Origin: Geobacteraceae bacterium
GTDB taxonomy: Bacteria > Desulfobacterota > Desulfuromonadia > Geobacterales > DSM-12255
Length of the DNA stretch: 41,132 nucleotides
NCBI GenBank assembly: GCA_013377075.1
Contig: JACABD010000032.1
Location: 1-41,132, forward strand
Direction: 5' to 3'
A program made the translations under genes and the position numbers. The notes under the pieces were generated by a model. That model worked only from the letters and a program-made list of their open reading frames with translations. It did not search any database and was not told where the DNA came from. Of this stretch, positions 29,581 through 40,641 are shown one piece after another. The number at the start of each line of letters is the position of its first letter. Position 1 is the first letter of the stretch.

Positions 29581-30179
29581 TGAACCTGACCGAACTGCAA
29601 CTTGATGCATTCAAGGAGTTGGTAAACATCGGAGTCGGCAGGGCAGCAGCATCGCTGAACGACATGCTCGACTCCCACATCATGCTGGAAGTGCCGGAAG
29701 TTCGCATGCTCGACTTCGACGACATGACCGGAGTGACTGACAACCTGGCTCAGGACCTCTCCTGCGTTCAGCTCGGGTTCTACGGTTCGTTCACCGGCAT
29801 GGCAGCACTGGTTTTCCCCCCACCCAGCGCCGTGCAACTTGTATCCGCTCTCACCGGCGAAGATGCCACAGCGCCAGGACTCGACGGATTGATCGCCGGT
29901 ACGCTGAACGAAGTGGGAAATATCGTCATAAACTGCGTGATCGGCACAATCGGCAACATTCTGGAACGACCACTGGATTTCTCCCTCCCCAATTACCTGC
30001 AAGGGCAACTTGGTGAACTACTGAAGATGGGGGATGATGATCAGCGAAAGAAGATCATTCTGGTTCGAACCCATTTTACCGTTCTGGAAAAACAGCTGGA
30101 CGGCAACATCTTCCTGATGTTTGAAGCGGCATCTTTCGACGCTCTGCTGCTCGCCATCGAACAGATCCATGCCCGGTAA
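29580..30179 (+). CDS. CheC-type CheY-P phosphatase
   Basis: 199 residues. The two CheC active-site helices are visible: FKELVNIGVGRAAASLNDM near the start and GTLNEVGNIVINCVIG near 113-128, both with the E-x2-N pair used to hydrolyse acyl phosphate. It would dephosphorylate the CheY-like regulator encoded just upstream. No CheD, CheA or MCP gene is in the window, so it may serve this small module rather than chemotaxis. Confidence 0.88.
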   Translation: MNLTELQLDAFKELVNIGVGRAAASLNDMLDSHIMLEVPEVRMLDFDDMTGVTDNLAQDLSCVQLGFYGSFTGMAALVFPPPSAVQLVSALTGEDATAPGLDGLIAGTLNEVGNIVINCVIGTIGNILERPLDFSLPNYLQGQLGELLKMGDDDQRKKIILVRTHFTVLEKQLDGNIFLMFEAASFDALLLAIEQIHAR

Positions 30180-31254
30180 AGTCGCTCTGAATATACTATC
30201 GCCACAAAACGGCGGATTCTCCCTGCTTGACCATGTGCCAATTGGGGTTCTCATTGTCTCCGCCGACCTCACCATACTCTTCTGGAACCGCTGCCTTGAG
30301 GAGTGGACTGGTTTGCCAAGGGAGAAAATGGTTGGTGCAGCGCTCATTGACTGCTTCCCCAACCTTGCAGCACCGCGTTACCTTAACCGGATCAGGGAAA
30401 TTTTTAACGGTGCTCCCCCAACGGTTTTCTCCTCCCAGTTGCACCGCCATCTTATCCCGGCAGCGCTCCCCGGCGGCAAATTCCGCACCCAATACACCGT
30501 AGTGACAGGGCTGCCAGCAGAGGGGTGCCACCGTTTCCATGCTCTGTTTTCAATCCAGGATGTTACCAGCCTTTCCGAAGCAATCGACAACTATCACATC
30601 ACTCACCGGGGACTGCTTGCAGAAATGGCCGAGCGACACCGGGCTGAAGATAAACTGAAAAAAACAGCCGAAGAGCTCAACCAGCTGAATCTGACCCTAA
30701 AAGAGCAGTCGATTCGTGATGGATTGACCGGGCTGTTCAATCATCGCTATTTCTGGTATATACTTCGCCGCGATTTTTCCCTGGCACATCGACACCACCA
30801 TCAGCTCTCCTGCCTGCTCGTGGACCTTGATTTTTTTAAAAAGATCAATGATATCTACGGCCACCTATATGGCGACAAAGTGTTGAAAGGTGTGGCAAAA
30901 CAGATCAGCAAACATGTACGGCAAACCGATACAGTCAGCAGGTACGGCGGGGAGGAGTTTGCCATCATACTCCCAAACACCAGCCTGGATGGAGCGTTAT
31001 TTATTGCGGAAAACATAAGAAAGCTGGTGGAGCGAAGCAAGTTCAGCAAAGGAGGGGAGATAATTCGAGTTACTGCCAGTATCGGCGTTGCATCCCTGTC
31101 AGATCACCGGCCAGATACACCTGAAAGACTGCTGGATTTTGCCGATACAGCGCTCTACGGCTCGAAACATGCCGGTCGCAATCGTGTGATCAGCTATAGC
31201 ACCACCATTCAATCAGAAAACCTGCACAACCTTGACCCTGTGCATGACAGATAA
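30169..31254 (+). CDS. PAS-GGDEF diguanylate cyclase
   Basis: 361 residues from the ATG at 30169, which overlaps the CheC end by 11 nt; an ATG at 30121 would overlap more and lacks a site. A PAS domain (about 15-135) leads through a coiled coil (150-180) to a GGDEF domain with LVDLDFFKKINDIYGH, active-site RYGGEEF (GGEEF 260-264) and the inhibitory I-site RQTD (251-254) five residues before it. All catalytic residues are present, so it should make c-di-GMP with product inhibition. Together with the regulator and CheC it links a phosphorylation signal to c-di-GMP. Confidence 0.9.
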   Translation: MPGKVALNILSPQNGGFSLLDHVPIGVLIVSADLTILFWNRCLEEWTGLPREKMVGAALIDCFPNLAAPRYLNRIREIFNGAPPTVFSSQLHRHLIPAALPGGKFRTQYTVVTGLPAEGCHRFHALFSIQDVTSLSEAIDNYHITHRGLLAEMAERHRAEDKLKKTAEELNQLNLTLKEQSIRDGLTGLFNHRYFWYILRRDFSLAHRHHHQLSCLLVDLDFFKKINDIYGHLYGDKVLKGVAKQISKHVRQTDTVSRYGGEEFAIILPNTSLDGALFIAENIRKLVERSKFSKGGEIIRVTASIGVASLSDHRPDTPERLLDFADTALYGSKHAGRNRVISYSTTIQSENLHNLDPVHDR

Positions 31255-31315: not shown

Positions 31316-31444
31316 TTTTTGAGTTGGAGTGGGTGGTGGGTGGACTTTCTGAGGAGTTGGTGGCGACAAAGAACAATTCCGCTGTGAAGCCTTGCTGAAT
31401 AAGGCTTCACAGCGGAATTGTTTTATATTCTGTAAAATCTGTAG
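31316..31444 (+). repeat. ~129-bp dispersed repeat, copy 1
   Basis: Similar over its length to 32196-32323, beginning TGAGTTGGAG and ending TGTAAAATCTGTAG, with the palindrome 31374-31420 in the middle. The two copies bracket the BrnT/BrnA genes and an antitoxin-like relic. Confidence 0.7.
31374..31420 (+). terminator. Perfect 20-bp hairpin with T-run
   Basis: Arms 31374-31393 and 31401-31420 are perfect complements (CAATTCCGCTGTGAAGCCTT) around a 7-nt loop and are followed on the plus strand by TTTTAT. It would end the signalling transcript (last stop 31254) and, read the other way, the BrnTA transcript. Confidence 0.6.
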
Positions 31445-31474: not shown

Positions 31475-31699
31475 TCAAGCAGCCTTTTTTAGCCGCTCTG
31501 ACACCCATACCTTGATAACAGACTGCCGAGGCACACCAAGACGTTTTGCCTCCTTGTCAAGTTGATGAATCATCCACAACGGGAAATCAACATTGACCCT
31601 TTTCTGCTCCTGTTCAGGTCTGTACGCCTTGGAGACATCAAGATACGCGGTAATATCCTCATTATCGTCGAACTTCTTGTCAAACTCTTCAACCTTCAT
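31475..31699 (-). CDS. brnA: BrnA-like antitoxin
   Basis: 74 residues. The C-terminal half (RVNVDFPLWMIHQLDKEA... GVPRQSVIKVWVSERL) is a ribbon-helix-helix-like DNA-binding domain as in CopG/BrnA antitoxins; the acidic N-terminus would wrap the toxin. It starts inside the brnT 3' end (11-nt overlap) with a GGAGGAGG site. Antitoxins of this type repress their own operon, probably through the palindrome at 31950-31966. Confidence 0.82.
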   Translation of the reverse strand: MKVEEFDKKFDDNEDITAYLDVSKAYRPEQEQKRVNVDFPLWMIHQLDKEAKRLGVPRQSVIKVWVSERLKKAA

Positions 31700-31949
31700 A
31701 AATTGAGACCTCCTCCGTTCTCGACCTACGCACTGAAATTATTTTCACTGTCTCGCCGCGATAAGTGATAATGCCAGACCAGTGCTTGCCGTCAATTACT
31801 CCGATAACCAGAAATCTTGGTTCATCCTGGGTCTTTACAGGAATCTCAATATAATCAAGATCATCCCATAGGACCTGAACCTCCTGAAAATCTATGCCGT
31901 GCTTTATCTTATTGCTACTGCTTTTGTCAGAGTCATACTCAAATCTCAT
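31689..31949 (-). CDS. brnT: BrnT-like toxin
   Basis: 86 residues, typical length. The BrnT ribonuclease fold signature is visible: FEYDSDKSSSNKIKHGIDF at the start, a central RFLVIGVIDGKHWSGIITYRGE, and the terminal IISVRRSRTEEVSIYE. Toxin before antitoxin is the normal brnTA order. No ribosome binding site precedes the ATG; a TATAAT box lies only about 10 nt upstream, so the mRNA may be nearly leaderless. Confidence 0.85.
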   Translation of the reverse strand: MRFEYDSDKSSSNKIKHGIDFQEVQVLWDDLDYIEIPVKTQDEPRFLVIGVIDGKHWSGIITYRGETVKIISVRRSRTEEVSIYEG

Positions 31950-31985: not shown

Positions 31986-32021
31986 TTTTTTTTTAACAAC
32001 GGACTTTGAAGTGGTTGCGCT

Positions 32022-32159
32022 GATGATCCAGTTGCACCAAATTTCGCGGCAGAGATGCGTACGGAAATAGCTCGGATAAAACCAGACAAGTGTTGACAGG
32101 CAAAGGTTAATGATGCGGTACGGACTTTTTTAAAAGAACATCCACTTAAGCCGGTATAA
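32022..32159 (+). pseudogene. Relic of a BrnA/DUF4415-type antitoxin gene
   Basis: One reading frame of 46 codons with an internal TGA (32094-32096) and a terminal TAA. The part after the TGA reads QAKVNDAVRTFLKEHPLKPV, which resembles the C-terminal helix (KGYQTRIN...) of DUF4415/BrnA-type antitoxins, with the TGA sitting where the conserved Tyr would be. No start codon with a ribosome site is seen and the N-terminal part is missing. It is on the opposite strand to the intact brnTA pair. Confidence 0.4.
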
Positions 32160-32195
32160 TTAAAAAGGGAGGGCTGTAGAGGGTGTAGGTGAAGT

Positions 32196-32323
32196 GCTTC
32201 TGAGTTGGAGCAGTAGATGGATGACTTATAATAACTGGTTACCGTAAAGTGCAGTCCCGCTGTGAAAACCTGTCAAATCTGGCTTCACAGCGGGACTGTT
32301 TTGATATCCTGTAAAATGTGTAG
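32196..32323 (+). repeat. ~128-bp dispersed repeat, copy 2
   Basis: Copy of the element at 31316-31444. Its core is an inverted repeat at 32252-32298 with 15-bp perfect outer arms (CAGTCCCGCTGTGAA) followed by TTTTGATAT. The arms differ in sequence from copy 1 (CAGTCCC against CAATTCC) yet stay complementary, so the fold rather than the exact sequence is kept. Confidence 0.7.
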
Positions 32324-32473
32324 TGGTTCTGTATCACTTTCTAAACATTGCTAAAGATTTATTGTGCGTGTGTATAAACCGGGCATCAATGCCACCTGAC
32401 AAGTAATGGCAACCAAGTACGGCACTGCTGCTATTCCTGCCCGTGTCCGCATACGTTTGCAAAAAACAGAGAC
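32324..32473. other. Gene-free stretch between repeat and lipoprotein gene
   Basis: The whole gap 31950-32473 holds the brnTA promoter, the antitoxin relic and repeat copy 2. In the remaining 150 bp I see no ORF with a start site, no hairpin with a T-run and no RNA gene. Confidence 0.5.
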
Positions 32474-32701
32474 CTACTCATTCGCAACATCGACTTGCTT
32501 GCAGTCCAAGTTCCCTGATTTCGGCTCAGATGAACACAATAGGACTTTAGTGTGAATACCAAGGAAACCCATGTTTTTATTTTTCAACAGATAATATGAC
32601 CCCGGCTTGTCTGCTTGACTTATACCTGCCCAACTTGTGCAACCGGTCATAAATGCAGTACATAAAACCAGAAGCCCAAATGTAGCGATAATTCTCATCA
32701 T
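32474..32701 (-). CDS. Small lipoprotein of unknown function
   Basis: 75 residues from the ATG at 32701, preceded by a run of G that serves as ribosome site. The signal peptide ends in a lipobox AFMTGC, so the protein is lipid-anchored in the outer or inner membrane. The mature part is about 55 residues with two more cysteines (LLCSSEPKSGNLDCKQ) that may pair. I do not recognise the family. It is the last of a set of exported-protein genes on this strand. Confidence 0.65.
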   Translation of the reverse strand: MMRIIATFGLLVLCTAFMTGCTSWAGISQADKPGSYYLLKNKNMGFLGIHTKVLLCSSEPKSGNLDCKQVDVANE

Positions 32702-32771
32702 TACCCCCCCCAATGTTGATAGTTTATTACTTCTTCTTCGCTAAATAGAAGATAGCTACAGTGATAAATAA

Positions 32772-32814
32772 GGTTTCACTGCTGGATTTGTTTTTGTTCT
32801 TGTCAAATATGTAG
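32772..32814 (+). repeat. Degenerate half copy of the 128-bp repeat
   Basis: GGTTTCACTGCTGGA...TTGTCAAATATGTAG matches the right half of copies 1 and 2 with several differences. An adjoining CAGTGA/TCACTG pair shows a shortened hairpin. It sits between the genes at 32474 and 32853. Confidence 0.5.
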
Positions 32815-32852
32815 GTCCGGCACTTAAGATCACCTAAAAACCTGACCCCATT

Positions 32853-33449
32853 TTACTTCTTATCCAGAGTCTGATAAAAACACTCGAACTTTTGACGCAT
32901 TTCCTCACCGCGATCTTCTTTCACTTCTCGCTCAATGATGACATTGCCTTCAAGAATAATACGAACTGCATCAATTTTTTTAGTGGTCAAAGTATTCCGG
33001 ATCGCTGCTAACTCCTTGTCACTAACATGAGCAGCCAGAACTACTATAGTAGTTGCAAGACCAGAGAAACCTCCCAATGCCGAAGTATTTCCCACTTCAG
33101 TAGCTGTAAATGTTATTGGCTCACCTTTATCAAATCCAAAACTGAATATATTTCCCTTCGCTCCACGATAAACCTGACCCAGTGTGGCCTGTTTATTCGA
33201 AGGGGTTAAGATCTTTAACTCAACATTAATTGCGTGAGTTTTACCGTAAGATCCCACTACTGCAAATATCTCGGATGTACTACCTTCCCAAAATTGCCTA
33301 TCGTGATCTAGGCTCTGAACCCATTTCTGAGTGCTCCGCTTTGTAATCTTGTCAAGTTGTGATATATCAGGTTTGCAGCTCTGTCCATATGATAGAGATG
33401 ACAACATACACAACGCAAGCAGCAGGACCTGAAACATATTTTTCTTCAC
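32853..33449 (-). CDS. Secreted protein of unknown function
   Basis: 198 residues from a GTG at 33449 with AAAGGGGGG upstream. Residues 1-22 form a Sec signal peptide (LLLALCMLSSLSYG). The mature protein contains KWVQSLDHDRQFW, a central segment FGFDKGEPITFTATEVGN, and a short hydrophobic patch (GLATTIVVLAAH). It resembles no family I can name. It lies between two lipoprotein genes on the same strand and may belong to the same surface-protein set. Confidence 0.7.
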   Translation of the reverse strand: MKKNMFQVLLLALCMLSSLSYGQSCKPDISQLDKITKRSTQKWVQSLDHDRQFWEGSTSEIFAVVGSYGKTHAINVELKILTPSNKQATLGQVYRGAKGNIFSFGFDKGEPITFTATEVGNTSALGGFSGLATTIVVLAAHVSDKELAAIRNTLTTKKIDAVRIILEGNVIIEREVKEDRGEEMRQKFECFYQTLDKK

Positions 33450-33539
33450 AATTACCCCCCTTTGATCGTAGTTTCACTAAAAAGTCTCTAAACTCAACGA
33501 GAAAACAGTTTCTGTTAGCCTAGATTGACAGGGCACTCG

Positions 33540-33851
33540 CTACTCTCCGTACACAATCAGTTTATATGAGCCGAAAATCCCAAAAATATTCCTTACCTGC
33601 CAATCAGCGTGCGTCATCTTGGTGATGTTGCCATCCTTCTTGGCAGCGTCGAAACTACAATCTCCATATGCAAACATTGCAAATAAACTATGACACTCGG
33701 CCGTACCGTTTTTCATAACTTTGGAACTATTACTGGTAACCGCAACGGGCAAGTTAACCCCTGTGAATATAGCGCCTACCGGATAAACACTTGCACATCC
33801 TGTCAACATACTGAAAGCAAGTAGTACAGCTAAACCTTTAATTTGTTTCAA
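33540..33851 (-). CDS. TRL-family lipoprotein
   Basis: 103 residues from the TTG at 33851, chosen because AGGAGGG lies a few nt upstream; an ATG at 33869 puts the ribosome site inside the gene. The signal peptide ends in lipobox LTGC (Cys 19). The mature domain (GVNLPVAVTSN, GTAECHSLFAMFAYGDCSF, ITKMTHADW, GSYKLIVYG) matches, from memory, the TRL-like family: small Gly-rich envelope proteins with a two-cysteine core, function unknown. It follows the OmpA-type gene by 100 nt. Confidence 0.75.
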   Translation of the reverse strand: MKQIKGLAVLLAFSMLTGCASVYPVGAIFTGVNLPVAVTSNSSKVMKNGTAECHSLFAMFAYGDCSFDAAKKDGNITKMTHADWQVRNIFGIFGSYKLIVYGE

Positions 33852-33951
33852 AAACCCTCCTATTGACATTATATTTACAGAAATTTTTGCAAGTTTTTTT
33901 AATGATCGTGTGGTGTTTCAGCGGCTCTAACCATTTATCATACAGAGCAGT

Positions 33952-35229
33952 TCATTTTTTGGGTTTGTCCTTTTCTCCATCAGTAATTATTATTTTAACT
34001 CGTTCAGGTTGTTCAGTAACTTCACACTGGTTGAATTTAAACTCCACACGACGATCTATTGCGTCAGTTAAATCATCCTTACCGCTACCGACAACATTCT
34101 CTTTGAAACCACGGCCAATCGTTTGCGTCCTGGATCTGCTCTTCGGAGAATAACTTTCCATTTGATGTTGAATCCATTCTGCCCGCTGCCTGGACAACTT
34201 ATCATTGTAGCTTCCTGATCCTGTCCTGCTGCTATGCCCAATTATCTGAACACGGCATGCCGACGATGCCGCCACACGATTTGCAATCTGTCGTATGTAA
34301 ATTTTGTAAAGATCCATCTTGCTATCCAGCGGAACTATGGAATTGGGAGCAAAAATGATTTTATTGGCAACCTCACTGGTCTCAGTAATGCTGGTGTTTA
34401 ACAGTTTGATATAAACATGCTCGGCATTTTCCAGTTGCCCCTGTTTTACCAGATTGGTGAATTGCCCGTTTAACACTTCAAGCTCTTGTTCCTTCTGACC
34501 TCCGGCTACCTGATTATAATAGGCAAGGGATTTATTGTAATCCTGCTTCTCATATAACGAGTCACCCTTTACCAGCATGGCTTTTGAACTTAATCTGTCA
34601 TTATAGCCCTTGGTTATCGTCTCATCCGGATCTTTTCTTACCGAAGCAACATGATCTTTGTAGTTATTTCCTTTAAAAAAAACCGGGCTGTCCTTATAAA
34701 TATCCATCGGGGTCGTATCAAAGGAATTGATATACACAGAAGCTGATGCAAGCACTTTCCCGGAAGATTTTTCAAAAACCGTTGCAAAAACCTTATAAGC
34801 TTTTGACTGTTTGCCATATTTATCCTCAAGAGTAACCATGCCATTCAGTACATATTCTGATCTCTCAAGATTCTCGGGATCCATTTCTCCAGTTATCGCA
34901 AATCGCTTGCCAATTTCCTTGGAGATCAGATTTGCAATTTGAACATTTGCCTTTACCGGATATCCAGACTCCACGTCAATAAAGGGATCAATGGCAATTT
35001 TTGTCATTTGTTTCTGCTTGGTCAAAGGATTAATAACGACTTTGTTCAGCATGTTGCGCACGCTGGATTTCTCCAACTGTTCGGCAATATTACTGGCAAG
35101 AGCTGTTATTCCGGGTTCAAACGTCATCGTCCGATTGGGGATCGGCGAGGTGTGAATGCAAGCGGTAATAGAAACCAGCACCATTACCAAAAAAACTATT
35201 TTAATTATTTGATCATGTAACTTGGTCAT
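33952..35229 (-). CDS. OmpA-family lipoprotein with FlgO-like and TPR regions
   Basis: 425 residues from the ATG at 35229; the longer reading to 35358 overlaps the previous gene. Signal peptide with lipobox ITAC (Cys 24). About 45-190 resembles the FlgO/CsgG-like alpha-beta fold (ALASNIAEQLEKS... VYILNG-type strands such as SEYVLNGMVTLEDKYG, then VFEKSSGKVLASAS). About 200-265 is TPR-like (GDSLYEKQDYNKSLAYYNQV). About 290-405 is an OmpA peptidoglycan-binding domain with IIGHSSRTGS, LSRQRAEWI and DAIDRRVEFKF. It would sit at the outer membrane and grip peptidoglycan. It lies 34 nt after another OmpA-like lipoprotein gene, downstream of the CsgG-like gene. Confidence 0.8.
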   Translation of the reverse strand: MTKLHDQIIKIVFLVMVLVSITACIHTSPIPNRTMTFEPGITALASNIAEQLEKSSVRNMLNKVVINPLTKQKQMTKIAIDPFIDVESGYPVKANVQIANLISKEIGKRFAITGEMDPENLERSEYVLNGMVTLEDKYGKQSKAYKVFATVFEKSSGKVLASASVYINSFDTTPMDIYKDSPVFFKGNNYKDHVASVRKDPDETITKGYNDRLSSKAMLVKGDSLYEKQDYNKSLAYYNQVAGGQKEQELEVLNGQFTNLVKQGQLENAEHVYIKLLNTSITETSEVANKIIFAPNSIVPLDSKMDLYKIYIRQIANRVAASSACRVQIIGHSSRTGSGSYNDKLSRQRAEWIQHQMESYSPKSRSRTQTIGRGFKENVVGSGKDDLTDAIDRRVEFKFNQCEVTEQPERVKIIITDGEKDKPKK

Positions 35230-35263
35230 CTGTATCCGATTGCATGAGAGTCTTCGATGTGCC

Positions 35264-36016
35264 TTACCGGTTTGACGCAGCATTTGCCTCTTCATTAACC
35301 TTTGGTGCCTGGGCTGTGTCGAATAGGGCAATGATGCGGGTATGCTGATAACGCTCATGTTCCTTCATTTTTACACCCTTGGGGCTGTATAGATCGCCGG
35401 TGCCGTAAACCTTGTAGAATTCATGAGGGATATTGACCAGATATTTATCAAGGATATCAAGAGGCGTTTCCGAGCGTTTTTTTGCAAGCCTAAGATTGGT
35501 TTTGCCCTTGCCTTTAGCAGAAGCGCTGCCGATTGACAGAAATATGATTTTCCTGCCTCTGCTTTCACGGGAAAGGAAGTCGGCAAAATGAACCAGTCGC
35601 TGGAACTCAAGAGAGTTTTTTTCAATGGTTGCTGAATTAGTGGAGAAGAATGTAGTTATCTCGCCAGTACCCTGAACTTTGGACATCTCTTCAATTATCT
35701 GTAAAGATTTCTGGGCGGTTTCAAGTGCCTTAGCACCAGTAGCCTTAACACTCCCTAATTCATTTTTTATCTCTGTCAAGTCAGTTACAACCTGCTTGTT
35801 CGCAGACTTAATTCCCCCCAACTCACTCATGACAGAATCATGGGCACCGACAAAAATGGTAACCATTTCCTTACAATCACGCGGATCGCCAGACTGATTT
35901 TTACCGGCATCAACAATCTTAAATCCACTCTCCTGCTGCTTTTGCTGACTTTGTTCGGTGGTTACGCATGCGGATAAAAGCAGCATTACGACGATGATTA
36001 CTGGATTTTTTATCAT
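35264..36016 (-). CDS. Divergent OmpA-like lipoprotein
   Basis: 250 residues. Lipobox LLLSAC (Cys 17). A coiled-coil stretch (about 60-115, SVMSELGGIKSANKQV...) leads to a C-terminal domain (about 118-235) shaped like OmpA: TTFFSTNSATIEKNSLEF, then IIFLSIGSASAKGKGKTNLRLAKKR in place of the usual GHTD...N..LS..RA, then RYQHTRIIALF. The usual Asp of GHTD is missing, so peptidoglycan binding may be altered. An AAGGA site is 7 nt before the ATG. It is probably an envelope anchor or stator of the same operon. Confidence 0.72.
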   Translation of the reverse strand: MIKNPVIIVVMLLLSACVTTEQSQQKQQESGFKIVDAGKNQSGDPRDCKEMVTIFVGAHDSVMSELGGIKSANKQVVTDLTEIKNELGSVKATGAKALETAQKSLQIIEEMSKVQGTGEITTFFSTNSATIEKNSLEFQRLVHFADFLSRESRGRKIIFLSIGSASAKGKGKTNLRLAKKRSETPLDILDKYLVNIPHEFYKVYGTGDLYSPKGVKMKEHERYQHTRIIALFDTAQAPKVNEEANAASNR

Positions 36017-36056
36017 TTAAAGATCCTTTACAAACACAAGTTGATACAGAAACAAA

Positions 36057-37544
36057 TTATTCAAGGTTATCACTAACTTTCTTAACTAACCCGGTTCCAG
36101 TAGTTATAACACCCACACCGGTACTAATCCCATTAGCAGATAGTCCTATGGCATTTACGTCTTTCATTCCATACAAATCATAACCAGTGCTAATCGTCGC
36201 GCCTATTGCACTTCCTTGTTCACCAAATAACGAGCCTGTCCGTTCAAACAAATCATTTGACTTGCCTTTATTGCCTTTAGTTTCGTCATAAAGTGTAATT
36301 CCCATTTCAGTCACATTTTTTGTAGCTCCCACAACATTTCCAGTGCCAAGGTCAGCAACTGCACCCACTGCTTTCATTGCTGTATTTGCTGTCACATCAT
36401 GTACATGACCAATTCCATCTGCCGCTGCTGAATATACAGCAGATTTACCCTCAGGCGTAAGACCTGAAACATCTCCAACAACGTAGTTAAAAATTAAGTT
36501 ACCACCCTCATCAGCAACTTTATCGCCAAAGTACTCTGCACCTTTAATTGTAAACCCAATAAAAGGTGCCTCCTTTAACACATCAAGCGCTGAAGGCTCT
36601 ACACCTCCATTAAGCAGATACAATCCATCCTTATAAAAGAATTCAGCTGATCTAATAACAAAACCTATTCCAAATGGGATTTCTTTTGTTGCGTCAAATA
36701 CTGATGGCTCTGATCCACCGTAAGCAAGATAATATGCATCATCTACAAAAAATTTACCTATTTTACCAACCCCTACGACACTTTCAAAGAATGGGTTTGG
36801 AATTTCACTTATTCCAGAGAGGGCAAGATCAATTTCAGGTTTATAATTATTGCCCCTCTCTTGACTAAAACTAGGCATACTTATAGAAGTGTTACCGTCT
36901 CTGCCTCCACCACCTAAACCGAAACTACCAACGGTGTTCCCATTACCATCAAACCGCTCCCCACCAACAATCGACCCAATCCGAATATTGTTGCCGGTAA
37001 CCTTACCTTTCACATCGATATTGGTTGAAAAATCCTGCACATTCGAGTTCTTGACCGAACCAAGCACGATCTCACCGGAACCGGTCTGCTTCACCCCTTC
37101 CTTAACATTAACATTAACCTTAAACGCGCCATTGACAGTCGAGTTATTAACCGAGCCAATATCCAGCTCCTGCCGGTCGCCACTGCGAGTAGAGACCTGC
37201 TCGATTTTGCCGGTATTGACGGTAGAGTTAAACGAACCGACCTTCGCATTGTTTGCTGAGCCGATGTTGGTGATTTGCACGATGCTTGTGCCGCTGGAAG
37301 ACTGGGTAATAGATCCGGTGGTGACGGTTGCGTTGAAGCTGTTGGCCTTGGTAGAGTTGGCAGAGCCGACGTTGAGGTCCTGGCGGTTATTGGAGCCGCT
37401 TGTAGTCTGCTTTATCGCTCCGGTGTTGACAATCGAAGTGAAGTCTTCTACTGAAGAATTATCCGCAAGAGCCCCTGTTGGGAGTGCGACTATTGCAAAG
37501 GCTATGACGTACAGGGGAATGCGCTGACCGATCATTGTCATCAT
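36057..37544 (-). CDS. Secreted repeat protein with curlin-like N-terminal repeats
   Basis: 495 residues, AGGAGG site upstream. Signal peptide 1-27 (LPTGALA). Residues 35-195 are five ~33-36 residue repeats of the form F.STV.TG.I.Q...G..RQ.L.IGS.NNS.V, the same unit as in the protein at 39886-40641. A Gly-rich hinge (about 195-218) follows. The C-terminal part (about 235-495) is different: it holds two tandem copies of a ~37-residue unit (265-302 and 303-339; FVDDAYYLAYGGSEPSVFDA against FYKDGLYLLNGGVEPSALDV), then a Gly/Ala/Thr-rich end. It may be a fibre subunit with a cap or anchoring domain, a nucleator, or an adhesin tip. Confidence 0.75.
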   Translation of the reverse strand: MMTMIGQRIPLYVIAFAIVALPTGALADNSSVEDFTSIVNTGAIKQTTSGSNNRQDLNVGSANSTKANSFNATVTTGSITQSSSGTSIVQITNIGSANNAKVGSFNSTVNTGKIEQVSTRSGDRQELDIGSVNNSTVNGAFKVNVNVKEGVKQTGSGEIVLGSVKNSNVQDFSTNIDVKGKVTGNNIRIGSIVGGERFDGNGNTVGSFGLGGGGRDGNTSISMPSFSQERGNNYKPEIDLALSGISEIPNPFFESVVGVGKIGKFFVDDAYYLAYGGSEPSVFDATKEIPFGIGFVIRSAEFFYKDGLYLLNGGVEPSALDVLKEAPFIGFTIKGAEYFGDKVADEGGNLIFNYVVGDVSGLTPEGKSAVYSAAADGIGHVHDVTANTAMKAVGAVADLGTGNVVGATKNVTEMGITLYDETKGNKGKSNDLFERTGSLFGEQGSAIGATISTGYDLYGMKDVNAIGLSANGISTGVGVITTGTGLVKKVSDNLE

Positions 37545-37563
37545 GCCCTACCTCCTGACAATT

Positions 37564-37920
37564 CTACTGCTGCTTCAATTCGCAAAAGGTATGCTGAAAA
37601 TCAACAAGATAGATACCTGGCGACGGACTACCGACTTTTTGCATTGAAATGAAACGGGATGAAAGCTGGGGAGCGCTCCAGTCCTTGTCTTCAAGTATCA
37701 GCTGCCCGCTTTGCCAGCAACGAACATTAAAGAGGCCCGTACTGCTTTCCAGAGAGCGTATTGCCTGACTTGTGGGGAGACCGACTGGAGGGTTACTGTT
37801 ATCAACTCGTGCTGCTTCGCCGCTGGTATCAAGAAACTGCTTTTCGGCTGCCTGTAACTGGGTAGTTGCCAGGGTTAGAACAACACCGAGAAGACAGCTT
37901 AAGATTATTTTCCTGGTCAT
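37564..37920 (-). CDS. Small secreted protein of CsgG-like locus
   Basis: 118 residues with a signal peptide (about 1-24, ending LQA) and an AGGGTGA site. The mature ~94 residues contain RCWQSGQLILEDKDW, SRFISMQKVGS and HTFCELKQQ, with two cysteines likely paired. It shows no motif of CsgE or CsgF that I can see, but its size, export and place between the CsgG-like gene and the second repeat protein would fit a periplasmic accessory or adaptor. Confidence 0.68.
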   Translation of the reverse strand: MTRKIILSCLLGVVLTLATTQLQAAEKQFLDTSGEAARVDNSNPPVGLPTSQAIRSLESSTGLFNVRCWQSGQLILEDKDWSAPQLSSRFISMQKVGSPSPGIYLVDFQHTFCELKQQ

Positions 37921-37929
37921 GGTTTCACC

Positions 37930-39546
37930 CTATTGCTTCATGATCTGATGAGAGCTCTCAGCCACTGCACCTGCGGAAGCTGTGGAAAAATCTGCCCGTA
38001 ACTTTTCCAGTGTATAGTTTTCAAGCGGTTCAAAGTCGCCACCCCGTGCCGAAACCGGCAAGTTGGGAGTCACATCAATGATCGTGTTGAAGCAGTAAAC
38101 CTTTTCTACTTCAAACTTTTTCCCGGTTTTGATCTCGAATTTCATGTCGCCCGGAATTTGCAGTGATTTGTTCTTGTCAAGCCACGGATCGGGAGCGAAA
38201 CGATTGGGATAGATGCGCAGCCAGCTGTCATGGGTTGGTTCGTTCAGGTAACAGTAGAGAAAAGTATTCTCCTTACTTTTCACTGTCAGAGAAATATCCG
38301 CTCCTGGTTTTACCGGTTTGCCGCTGATCTGAACTTTCTGGGGGAGTGGCTTTGTTGCCTTGGCTTCATCAGACTTCACAGGAGCAGAACTTTTCTTGCC
38401 TTTCTTGGCTTTAGTTGTCTTTTTCTCTTCATACTGCACCTCTGTCAGATGCGCGACCGGCTCACTGGGAAAGCCGAGGTTTTTAGTCTTAAGATTGATC
38501 AGCCCTGAAAACAGATCCTCGTCAATTCCATTGCCCTCGTTCAGGCCTAGTGCCAAACGTGCTTTGGGAACAACCGCCTGAAATTCAGGATTCTGCGATC
38601 CGTCAACCGGACCGGAATAGACACCGCGCATCCTAAACTGATTCTGAATATACGGAATCAGCTTTCGTTCCTGACTAAGCGAATAATACCAGTCCCCAAT
38701 CTCTTCCTTTACCAGATGATGATTCGGATCAATCCCCAGACAGCTCCAGTAAGGAACACGGGTGAGTTTGCCAAAAAGTTCGATTGAAGCCAGTTCAATC
38801 AATGTCCGTACGGCCTGAGCCGAACCTTCATTAGCGCTGAATGAAAAATTCAGATTCAATCCGAAGCTTTGCTTGCTGATACTGCCTGTCAATGCTGAGC
38901 CGACGGCATCACCTTCCTTGAAAACCAGTATGGAATTGCGCGACGTAACACCAGGCAAAAGCTCCATTGTCTGGGTGCTGATGATGCTCATATCAAGAGC
39001 TAATACAGAGGCGTTGACATCTTTGGACCAATCGAAATCGAAATACCCTCCGAAGCTGCCGCCTGCGCTCTTGCGCTTTTGAACAATGTTGTCGTCCATC
39101 TGGCTGATCGACCCACGGATATCGTAATCGGGCTTGAAGGTATAAACCCGGCTGTTTGAACCGGAGGCGTTGAGCCAATTCACCAGATTGGAAACATCGC
39201 CGCCGAATGTAATTAACCGAATAGCACGGCTTCGCTTGGTCATATCAGAAACTGCGGACATAAGCATGTCGCGAGCGCCGACATTCATTTTTTTTGTATT
39301 GTCGTGCAGATCCTCAGCCAGGACGACCAGATCTTTAATGCCGTTTTCAATGAACAAGCGATCCATGCAGCGAAGACAATCCGCCATGTTAGTCAGATTT
39401 TTTTGAGGTGCTGAGTCAGGTCCAGTGCGGGCCGTCTGGGCTTTTTCCTCAACTGCATCCCGCATTGGCTGAAATGTTCCGCAGCCAGCAAACAGAGTGC
39501 TTGAGAGGACTACCAATGCAACTAAAAAGTGAGCTGTACGAATCAT
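37930..39546 (-). CDS. CsgG/HfaB-like outer-membrane secretion lipoprotein with PG-binding and DUF4384-like domains
   Basis: 538 residues. Lipobox LFAGC (Cys 22). About 60-270 matches the CsgG/HfaB fold as I know it: YDIRGSISQMDDNI, a barrel-strand-like GGSFGGYFDFDW, SVLALDMSIISTQTMELLPG, and the AVRTLIELASIELFGKLTRVPYW region with a following cysteine. CsgG forms a nonameric pore that exports curli subunits. About 285-350 resembles a peptidoglycan-binding-1 domain (QNQFRMRGVYSGPVDG). A Lys-rich linker (372-400) leads to a DUF4384-like domain (410-500; ISLTVKSKENTFLYCYLNE, LRIYPNRF). It lies between genes for small exported proteins and two repeat proteins, which suggests it exports them. Confidence 0.78.
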   Translation of the reverse strand: MIRTAHFLVALVVLSSTLFAGCGTFQPMRDAVEEKAQTARTGPDSAPQKNLTNMADCLRCMDRLFIENGIKDLVVLAEDLHDNTKKMNVGARDMLMSAVSDMTKRSRAIRLITFGGDVSNLVNWLNASGSNSRVYTFKPDYDIRGSISQMDDNIVQKRKSAGGSFGGYFDFDWSKDVNASVLALDMSIISTQTMELLPGVTSRNSILVFKEGDAVGSALTGSISKQSFGLNLNFSFSANEGSAQAVRTLIELASIELFGKLTRVPYWSCLGIDPNHHLVKEEIGDWYYSLSQERKLIPYIQNQFRMRGVYSGPVDGSQNPEFQAVVPKARLALGLNEGNGIDEDLFSGLINLKTKNLGFPSEPVAHLTEVQYEEKKTTKAKKGKKSSAPVKSDEAKATKPLPQKVQISGKPVKPGADISLTVKSKENTFLYCYLNEPTHDSWLRIYPNRFAPDPWLDKNKSLQIPGDMKFEIKTGKKFEVEKVYCFNTIIDVTPNLPVSARGGDFEPLENYTLEKLRADFSTASAGAVAESSHQIMKQ

Positions 39547-39552
39547 ATGGTT

Positions 39553-39864
39553 CTACCGGCACTTACTTGATGGAATATTGATTACATCACCTGTTACAAC
39601 TACCGTATTTTCACGTGGCACTGCCGCGACTTTCCCATCTGTGTATACATTACCTATTTCTACTCCTTTGCAGGGATCGCCATCTGCTTTTTGTAGATTT
39701 GATGATATAACCGCTTTCGATTTGTCACTTTTTTCCATTGATTGATGACGTTTCGCCCTATTCACCTTGAGACTTGTACCGGCATCTAATCCATCATCAC
39801 CGGCAAAAACCGTTGCAGACATAAGAAACTGACTCGAAAAGACAAGAACAGCGAGAGTTTTCAT
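39553..39864 (-). CDS. Small secreted protein of CsgG-like locus
   Basis: 103 residues from the ATG at 39864, chosen because GGAGG lies 6 nt upstream (the reading to 39876 starts at a TTG before the site). A signal peptide (about 1-21, ending VFA) is followed by a charged, basic mature chain containing LKVNRAKRHQSMEKSDKSK and a C-terminal part ENTVVVTGDVINIPSSKCR with two cysteines overall. Family unknown. It ends 6 nt before the CsgG-like start and begins 21 nt after the first repeat protein, so the three are probably co-translated. Confidence 0.68.
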   Translation of the reverse strand: MKTLAVLVFSSQFLMSATVFAGDDGLDAGTSLKVNRAKRHQSMEKSDKSKAVISSNLQKADGDPCKGVEIGNVYTDGKVAAVPRENTVVVTGDVINIPSSKCR

Positions 39865-39885
39865 CAAAACCTCCAATATAAATAA

Positions 39886-40641
39886 TCAACGAACGGAACC
39901 GATAGTTGCGGACTGATTATGGCCACCAGCGCCAGTTGCAGACTGTTCAATTTTTCCATTTACGGTAACATTTGACTTGAATGATCCGACTTCTGCATTA
40001 TTCATCGAACCCAGCATCAGATCCTGCTTGACGTCCTTACTGGCTATTTGAGATATGTTACCAGTAACTTTCACCGTGGAGTCAAAGTTGCCTGATTTTA
40101 CAGTTGAGTTTTTTGCGCTGCCAATCTGTATGCTTTGAGTATTCCCGTCGCCTGTCGCAGTCTGCTTAACATTTTTTACATTTACATCCGATTTAAAAGT
40201 TCCACCTTCAACCTTCGAGTTGTTGCTGGAGCCAATCAGCATCTCCTGTGTATTATTACTGCCACCCTTTACTTCCTGAGACAGGTCTCCGGCAGTAACT
40301 TTAGACTTGAACTCTTTTACAGTGCTGTTCTGTATGGAACCGACAGACATGTCCTGCCGATTTTCTGATCCGTTACCAGATATAGTCTGTTTAATGTTGC
40401 CAGTTTCAACATTAGAGAAAAAGTTTCCGTCAACCCTGCTCCCCTCAACTGAACCCACCGCAAGGTTTTGAGTATTACTCTCACCTTCCGCCTTTTGGGT
40501 CACTCCATTAACTTTCACCTCAGACTTAAAACTTCCGCTAACAGTTGAACTTGTTGAAGAACTGCCCTGATCTTGAGCAGTTGCCAGAGTTACAGATAAT
40601 ACTAAAACGGCAAAACCAGTTAGAACCAATCCCTGTCTCAT
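39886..40641 (-). CDS. Secreted curlin-like repeat protein, candidate fibre subunit
   Basis: 251 residues, AGGAG site 7 nt upstream. Signal peptide 1-22 (ends ATA-Q). From residue 36 to the last residue it is six tandem repeats of 33-38 residues: G.F.S.V.V.G.I.Q.A.G..N.Q.L.IGS..NS.V. Conserved Gln, Gly, Asn and Gln occur at fixed spacing, as in curlin (Q-x-G-x-G-N-x-A-x3-Q) but in a longer unit with an added GS turn and N-S-x-V strand. Almost no Cys or aromatic residues occur apart from Phe near each repeat start. It looks like a beta-solenoid or amyloid subunit, first in an operon with a CsgG-like exporter. Confidence 0.75.
   Translation of the reverse strand: MRQGLVLTGFAVLVLSVTLATAQDQGSSSTSSTVSGSFKSEVKVNGVTQKAEGESNTQNLAVGSVEGSRVDGNFFSNVETGNIKQTISGNGSENRQDMSVGSIQNSTVKEFKSKVTAGDLSQEVKGGSNNTQEMLIGSSNNSKVEGGTFKSDVNVKNVKQTATGDGNTQSIQIGSAKNSTVKSGNFDSTVKVTGNISQIASKDVKQDLMLGSMNNAEVGSFKSNVTVNGKIEQSATGAGGHNQSATIGSVR

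Follow-up and report, generated by a model that had tools for sequence, protein, structure and literature searches.

A candidate CsgG-type export locus for a non-curlin repeat fibre in a Geobacteraceae contig

The window analysed here is the whole of contig JACABD010000032.1 (41,132 nucleotides [nt]) of a Geobacteraceae bacterium (assembly GCA_013377075.1), whose genome is 3.7 Mb in 126 contigs and 95% complete. Toward one end of this contig lies a set of seven minus-strand genes (33952-40641, read in the order 40641 to 33952), and the N-termini of all seven products resemble signal peptides or lipoproteins when read by eye, with lipoboxes FAGC, LSAC and ITAC. The intergenic gaps are 21, 6, 9, 19, 40 and 34 nt, in keeping with the initial annotation of this DNA, which described seven adjacent genes 6-40 nt apart. 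These figures take the ATG at 39864 as the start of S1 and 35229 (MTKLH...) as the start of P7; the latter was chosen because the first in-frame ATG of P7, at 35358, would overlap the preceding gene. GC content is 0.438 in 32000-40641 and 0.526 in 1-31200. The genes, with the names used below, are as follows.

39886..40641, minus strand: rep1, exported repeat protein of 251 amino acids (aa) with six repeats spaced 36-38 residues; candidate fibre subunit
39553..39864, minus strand: S1, small exported protein of 103 aa, its C-terminal end similar to one fibre repeat flanked by two cysteines; candidate nucleator or adaptor
37930..39546, minus strand: CsgG-like lipoprotein of 538 aa with a CsgG-fold domain at about 50-272 and DUF4384 at 413-486; candidate outer-membrane channel
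37564..37920, minus strand: S2, small exported protein of 118 aa with CWQxG and a C-terminal Cys
36900..37544, minus strand: rep2, repeat half, with about five repeats spaced 28-35 residues; candidate second fibre subunit
36057..36899, minus strand: rep2, C-terminal half, about 267 aa; candidate tip, adhesin or cargo domain
35264..36016, minus strand: P6, lipoprotein whose C-terminus is OmpA-like but degenerate; apparently added in this lineage
33952..35229, minus strand: P7, OmpA-family lipoprotein of 425 aa with an OmpA domain at 312-384 and a weak tetratricopeptide repeat (TPR) match; candidate peptidoglycan anchor

Rep1 and rep2 match each other over a common unit of about 35 residues (E 2.8e-18, 43% identity), which bears out the repeat that the initial annotation had seen in both proteins. 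Self-similarity peaks at lag 37 in rep1 (z 7.5) and at lag 35 in the first 230 residues of rep2 (z 17.4); none of 100 shuffles of either sequence reached the observed value, and 150 background open reading frames (ORFs) had a mean z of 2.1, with 8.7% at z 5 or more and a maximum of 40.6. S1, S2, the CsgG-like protein, P6 and P7 show no repeat (z <2). Asn, Gln and Gly are abundant in both proteins after signal-peptide removal, and the 3.7-Mb genome gave no further match at E 0.001. The model of rep1, made from an alignment (A4) with 19 other repeat sequences including rep2, is all-beta with repeating strands (mean predicted local distance difference test [pLDDT] 86.4, predicted template modelling score [pTM] 0.84). 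This strand pattern, together with matches to beta-helix structures, is the reason for reading rep1 as a beta-solenoid, and its modelled fold is solenoid-like. The VIA matches of rep1 are generic beta-helix proteins (Z up to 9.6), and neither curli nor FapC is among the 50 matches listed; FapC is the first Foldseek match, at a non-significant level (E 5.9e-3, probability 0.12).

The two halves of rep2 are dissimilar in composition. GC content at third codon positions (GC3) drops at the boundary from 0.581 in the repeat half to 0.238 in the C-terminal half. The C-terminal half has its own self-similarity peak at lag 37 (z 9.4), and searches of 96 related genomes, of plasmids and of phages gave no match to it. 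Because of the GC3 fall and this lack of homologues, rep2 looks like a mosaic gene and its C-terminal half like a recently fused module. Neither half matches a Pfam or NCBIfam family at E 1. The repeat group as a whole likewise matches no family in these libraries, scattered single-member matches to unrelated families being judged chance.

The 538-aa product of 37930-39546 is a lipoprotein that the initial annotation called CsgG/HfaB-like. Judged by its AlphaFold2 model (mean pLDDT 77.4, pTM 0.73), its fold is of the CsgG type; a CsgG-fold match, the absence of which had been named beforehand as grounds for rejecting the idea, was found. The best structural matches of the model are solved CsgG chains (Foldseek E 7.5e-7). 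With VIA, Z is 13.7 both for 4uv2 (root-mean-square deviation [rmsd] 4.2, 170 residues, range 51-272) and for the CsgG-CsgF complex 6l7a (rmsd 4.6, 181 residues, range 50-272), and the matched range covers long predicted strands at 141-236. The next structural family is PelC (Z 10.2), and FlgT is also present (Z about 9-10); the best CsgG match stands 3.5 Z above the best PelC match, and the weakest CsgG match among those listed (Z 11.8) still stands 1.6 above it. A profile comparison (hhalign) with three CsgG-family proteins, including that of E. coli, gave an E-value of 6.8e-5 and a probability of 63.5%. Pore formation by this protein is what we infer from its fold.

Relatives of this protein were collected by scanning 84,980 species genomes once with a profile built from three CsgG-like sequences, which yielded 64 loci, a lower bound since only two peptide patterns were used. 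Alignment A3 comprises the window protein and 33 of these relatives. All 34 members match DUF4384 at E 0.1, 26 of 34 match PG_binding_1 and 7 of 34 match Pfam CsgG (PF03783), and the NCBIfam HfaB model is matched by 22 of 34 at E 0.01 (best 4e-11). In the window protein, DUF4384 follows the CsgG-fold domain (Pfam E 7e-7), HfaB is matched weakly (NF037935, E 0.019, 14.2 bits against an equivalog cut-off of 300 bits), and neither Pfam CsgG nor a peptidoglycan (PG)-binding family is matched at E 1. The region between the CsgG fold and DUF4384 matches PG-binding models in most relatives, the window protein excepted, and this part of the family profile also found 8da2 among PDB sequences (E 1e-4).

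The 64 loci come from Pseudomonadota (62), Myxococcota (1) and a genome without a phylum label (1), which rules out an orphan locus unique to the present genome. Profiles derived from the window find S2 in 42 of the 64, S1 in 26 and the repeat in 18. The repeat and S1 are linked: S1 occurs in all 18 repeat loci, and the 38 loci that lack S1 give no repeat match (Fisher P 4e-10, uncorrected for relatedness). The only other match of the repeat profile is in L032 (E 0.35, with no domain). The count of 18 was partly seeded by inspection, since the first repeat hidden Markov model gave eight loci and was then re-seeded with repeats found by eye. Lags in the profile-found proteins are mostly 35-39, with L023 at 73 (about twice 36) and the Myxococcota locus L024 encoding two repeat proteins with lags of 31 and 63 (about twice 31). 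The repeats in one protein number up to 8-13 in relatives and only two or three in five of the 18 loci (L010, L011, L013, L016 and L020). Short repeat proteins were also chosen by eye in six further loci of the 64 (L042, L057, L058, L059, L060 and L071) and in a plasmid locus (L008), and these seven peak at lags 35-40. In the tree, the window belongs to a clade with 23 relatives (Shimodaira-Hasegawa-like approximate likelihood ratio test 99), 18 of which have the repeat gene; of the others, L009 and L019 end short upstream, and L029 lacks S1 and extends only 865 nt upstream. PDB sequences gave no match to the repeat proteins of this clade at E 10. A likeness of the repeat proteins to HasA, taken from two weak PDB sequence matches (E 0.08 and 0.23), was judged chance.

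The conserved core is thus a repeat protein, S1 and the CsgG-like protein, often accompanied by S2 and an OmpA protein. The expectation that the genes co-occur in relatives held for this core; it failed for the seven-gene set, in which P6 and the C-terminal half of rep2 are local. The locus is better described as a three-gene core found in distantly related bacteria with local accessories added.

S1 usually has a Cys followed by an IGNV-like motif, a VxIxGDVI-like motif and a final Cys. When its C-terminus was compared with a two-repeat fibre profile, P was 5.1e-4, as opposed to 0.9 for the S2 profile and 0.58 for reversed repeats, the negative controls. This weak resemblance to one repeat is what suggests a nucleating role, and S1 may act as an adaptor or nucleator of one rung. 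The S1 group matches no family in Pfam or NCBIfam, single-member matches judged chance aside. S2, which is possibly a periplasmic accessory, has no Pfam match, and neither S1 nor S2 matches a curli family.

A diverged version of the core is present in the phylum of the host itself. A distant CsgG-like homologue occurs in three of 96 relatives of the host genome, all of the same order (24-26% identity). When 395 genomes of the phylum (own included) were scanned, with at most three candidates scored per genome, a full-length match was found in the own genome only; eight other genomes match across the CsgG and PG-binding regions (E 2.4e-19 or better), and two (G362 and G341) match weakly in the CsgG part alone (E about 1e-4). 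Any match at all occurs in 126 of the 395, mostly confined to the DUF4384 or PG-binding part. The own-phylum set therefore comprises eleven loci (three plus eight), ten of which have sequence upstream of the channel gene, L096 ending short. The order is the same in all ten: the exported repeat protein comes first, then at least one small exported protein, then the channel. For each of the ten repeat proteins, chosen by eye before the self-similarity test, the peak lies at lag 35 or 36 (z 9 to 105). That proteins so little alike in sequence keep an almost constant period is the most telling regularity, bearing in mind the partly by-eye choice.

Seven of the eleven own-phylum loci were placed in the tree, and all seven fall outside the clade of the window, two of them on very long branches. 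This placing, the GC contrast within the contig and the finding of only three distant homologues in 96 relatives favour lateral arrival of the core. The core probably reached this genome from a lineage now seen in Pseudomonadota and one Myxococcota; the alternative is old inheritance with many losses.

Taken together, the data point to a system of the CsgG type (type VIII-like) that exports and assembles a fibre of beta-solenoid repeats, each about 36 residues long and not curlin repeats, a reading to which we assign a probability of roughly 0.6. The initial annotation saw here an export and anchoring machine for a repeat-built fibre; in outline this stands, given the CsgG fold and the conserved gene set, with export and fibre formation as its inferred part.

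The proposed sequence of events begins with passage of all products across the inner membrane by Sec, as their apparent signal peptides suggest. The 538-aa lipoprotein would then be lipidated, and its CsgG domain would form a ring in the outer membrane while its C-terminal region, judging from the PG-binding matches of its relatives, would fasten the protein to peptidoglycan. Rep1 and rep2 would traverse the pore unfolded, and their modelled coils would stack into a fibre. S1 could stay at the channel mouth and template the fibre by acting as its first rung, comparable in this to CsgB or CsgF. S2 and the OmpA lipoproteins may have helper roles in the periplasm and fasten the complex to the wall, and the unique C-terminal domain of rep2 would be displayed on the fibre.

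Several observations weigh against this scheme. The rep1 model has no significant match in the PDB, and beta-solenoid proteins need not polymerise. The likeness of S1 to the repeat is modest (31 columns, probability 31%), and inside one own-phylum locus the small protein matches the repeat protein only at E 0.023. In the channel model, loops 154-175 and 214-227 have pLDDT <50; with these loops and with only the range ends of the alignment given, the membrane hairpins are not demonstrated. CsgG-fold lipoproteins with other roles also exist, PelC and FlgT among the structural matches. Among the relatives, 38 of 64 loci, with 26 from Azospirillaceae or Roseomonadaceae, have a CsgG-DUF4384 protein, often with S2 and OmpA, and no S1 or profile-detected repeat, so the channel may export other substrates; three of the 38 (L019, L029 and L063) have <900 nt upstream. 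L030 and L031, both in the clade of the window, lack S1 and the repeat despite >7 kb of upstream sequence, and L057 has a by-eye repeat protein and no S1 match. Finally, the terminal branch of the window is long (0.91), which makes its placing and the donor unsure.

The alternative that survives best, which we nevertheless consider unlikely, is a system resembling a holdfast anchor, in which small repeat proteins are exported, retained at the outer membrane and hold polysaccharide like HfaABD of Caulobacter, with no long fibres. HfaB is matched by more of the family than Pfam CsgG even at the stricter threshold used for it (22 members against 7), and excerpts of PMC6707917 state that HfaA and HfaD need HfaB to reach the outer membrane. 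The loci with two or three repeats (5 of 18) would also suit such an anchor, since only by polymerising could their proteins make a long solenoid. Against this stand the HfaB score of the window protein, far short of the cut-off, and the 8-13 repeats reached by the repeat proteins of relatives; furthermore, no polysaccharide-export gene was seen among the neighbours scanned, most other genes in the window being unannotated.

Still less probable is a modular effector or adhesin, in which the rep2 repeats would act as a stalk or export signal, the swapped-in C-terminal domain would be the active cargo and rep1 would be accessory. The sharp GC3 break in rep2 and a C-terminal half without relatives in the genomes, plasmids and phages searched would fit such a module, and a dedicated secretion route, MafA/MafB of Neisseria, is described in an excerpt of a paper that mentions CsgG (PMC7738311). 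However, the repeat proteins of relatives, read by eye, end in repeats and have no such C-terminal domain, and rep2 matches no family in Pfam or NCBIfam at E 1. The poorest candidate is a periplasmic ring or structural lipoprotein like PelC or FlgT with the repeat proteins as envelope scaffolds that stay in the periplasm: the PelC and FlgT matches and the OmpA and PG-binding matches would suit it, but every listed CsgG match outscores PelC and the Asn/Gln/Gly-rich composition is that of secreted functional amyloids, as an excerpt of PMC12822426 describes them.

The initial annotation listed two OmpA-type lipoproteins, of which P7 is confirmed (PF00691, Pfam E 1.2e-7, 32.4 bits, above the cut-off of 27.2) and P6 is doubtful, with no Pfam OmpA match at E 1 and 15.4 bits over about half the length of an OmpA profile built here. 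Among the 96 relatives, P7 matches are confined to the C-terminal TPR/OmpA part (best E 3.1e-6). P6 was detected in the window only among 69 loci searched. It has homologues in two of the 96 related genomes, both of the same order (59% identity with one in-frame stop, and 44%), and no fibre locus was seen in the stretch of about 13 kb around either, although a separate contig of one of these genomes carries a diverged fibre locus (L006/L141). The OmpA proteins had been taken for special extras of this locus, a view that does not hold, since an OmpA-domain ORF lies on the same strand within the fetched stretch in 33 of the 64 relative loci (in four of these, 3-5 kb upstream). These ORFs were counted with a domain-only profile, which replaced one grown from the whole of P7 that drifted onto alternative frames of GC-rich loci.

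The relative loci differ in what accompanies the core. Azospirillum-type loci (L007, L033-L035, L039-L041, L043, L045 and similar) encode a CsgG-DUF4384 protein, S2 and an OmpA protein, with no repeat or S1 detected. In the Magnetococcales loci L058, L059 and L071, S1 and the CsgG-like gene are preceded by genes encoding short proteins of two repeats (period 38), and in L058 and L071 two or more such genes stand in tandem. A DUF2807 (head GIN domain) protein is encoded downstream of the set in L009, L012, L016 and L024; this domain is absent from the window proteins scanned against Pfam. Genes for extracytoplasmic function sigma factors with anti-sigma-like neighbours lie near the set in L010 (3159-4437), L024 (5918-7368) and L007 (4112-5440), called by Pfam in the first two and by annotation in the third.

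Other features of the window lie mostly close to the locus. Immediately after it on the same strand are a TRL-like lipoprotein gene (33540-33869, minus strand; Pfam 3.4e-23) and a gene for an exported-looking protein without a family (32853-33449, minus strand). Downstream of the locus is a pair encoding a BrnT toxin (Pfam 2.6e-21) and a CopG-type antitoxin (2.3e-7) at 31475-31949 (minus strand). This pair is flanked by two 57-nt copies of a palindromic element (31368-31424 and 32246-32302) that are 75% alike and 878 nt apart, one of them with perfect 22-nt arms. A tRNA gene (Rfam) is present at the contig edge (52-135, minus strand). A PAS-GGDEF diguanylate cyclase is encoded at 30121-31254 (plus strand), <3 kb from the locus, and control of the fibre by cyclic di-GMP (c-di-GMP) would be plausible. 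An excerpt of one report (PMC9481103) links a CsgG gene with tandem glycine/c-di-GMP riboswitches. Riboswitch control is unsupported here: at gathering thresholds, Rfam detects only a tRNA in the window and nothing in the ten own-phylum loci. A scan for promoters and terminators gave a result at about chance level.

If the fibre reading is correct, a widespread system that combines a CsgG-fold channel with another repeat length and added anchoring domains, and that dispenses with CsgE and CsgF, would reveal which parts of curli biogenesis are essential. New pores of the CsgG fold and a new candidate amyloid family would come with it; CsgG itself serves in nanopore sensing. Profile models of the repeat and S1 families would make the system findable by annotators, as no Pfam or NCBIfam model covers either. 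No description of this gene set was found among the papers listed from the open-licence literature, and no paper was found for CsgG with DUF4384, although such absence is weak evidence.

Comparison with curli of E. coli shows both likeness and difference. As in curli, a CsgG-fold lipoprotein is encoded beside exported repeat proteins, and rep1 is modelled as solenoid-like. The curli repeat, however, averages about 23 residues according to an excerpt of PMC10192328, whereas the lag here is about 35-37. The channel protein here also carries DUF4384, with PG-binding matches in most relatives. The initial annotation recognised no classical curli partners, and this was borne out: the curlin repeat (PF07012), CsgF (PF10614) and CsgE (PF10627) gave 0 matches in the 95% complete own genome, the E. 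coli control being positive, which rules out ordinary curli. In addition, no curlin model matched rep1, rep2 or 18 repeat proteins of relatives, and CsgF (PF10614) was unmatched by the 27 S1 members.

HfaB of the Caulobacter HfaABD system is the nearest named NCBIfam model to the channel family, and excerpts of PMC6707917 describe HfaB and two exported partners, a similar minimal set. It differs in that the window protein falls far below the HfaB cut-off and has extra C-terminal domains. None of the 395 own-phylum genomes exceeds this cut-off of 300 bits; the E. coli and Caulobacter controls both match, one of them above it. The repeat and S1 families have no holdfast match in NCBIfam, the presence of HfaA and HfaD models in that library being unchecked. 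As far as named sequence models can tell, the channel family is nearer HfaB than CsgG, and the repeat unit is not curlin.

The imperfect repeats of FapC, from the Fap system of Pseudomonas, are comparable in length to those described here. Excerpts of PMC12822426 give FapC Asn/Gln pairs at 53-89, 118-150 and 181-227 (spans calculated here as 37, 33 and 47 residues), describe secreted functional amyloids as rich in Asn, Gln and Gly, and count curli and Fap as two well-characterised fibre-secretion systems of this sort. The same excerpts describe export in Fap via FapF, a trimeric barrel, in contrast to the CsgG-fold protein here. The three-gene core, with a period of mostly 35-40 residues (31 in one Myxococcota genome), spans Pseudomonadota, Myxococcota and the phylum of the host, in sequences that are scarcely alike. 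It is tempting to place it beside curli and Fap as a third lineage of functional-amyloid export, a proposal that we hold tentatively and at slightly less than even odds, in which a CsgG/HfaB-type channel and the single-repeat nucleator S1 would export solenoid fibres with coils of about 36 residues, the peptidoglycan anchor being built in for many members.

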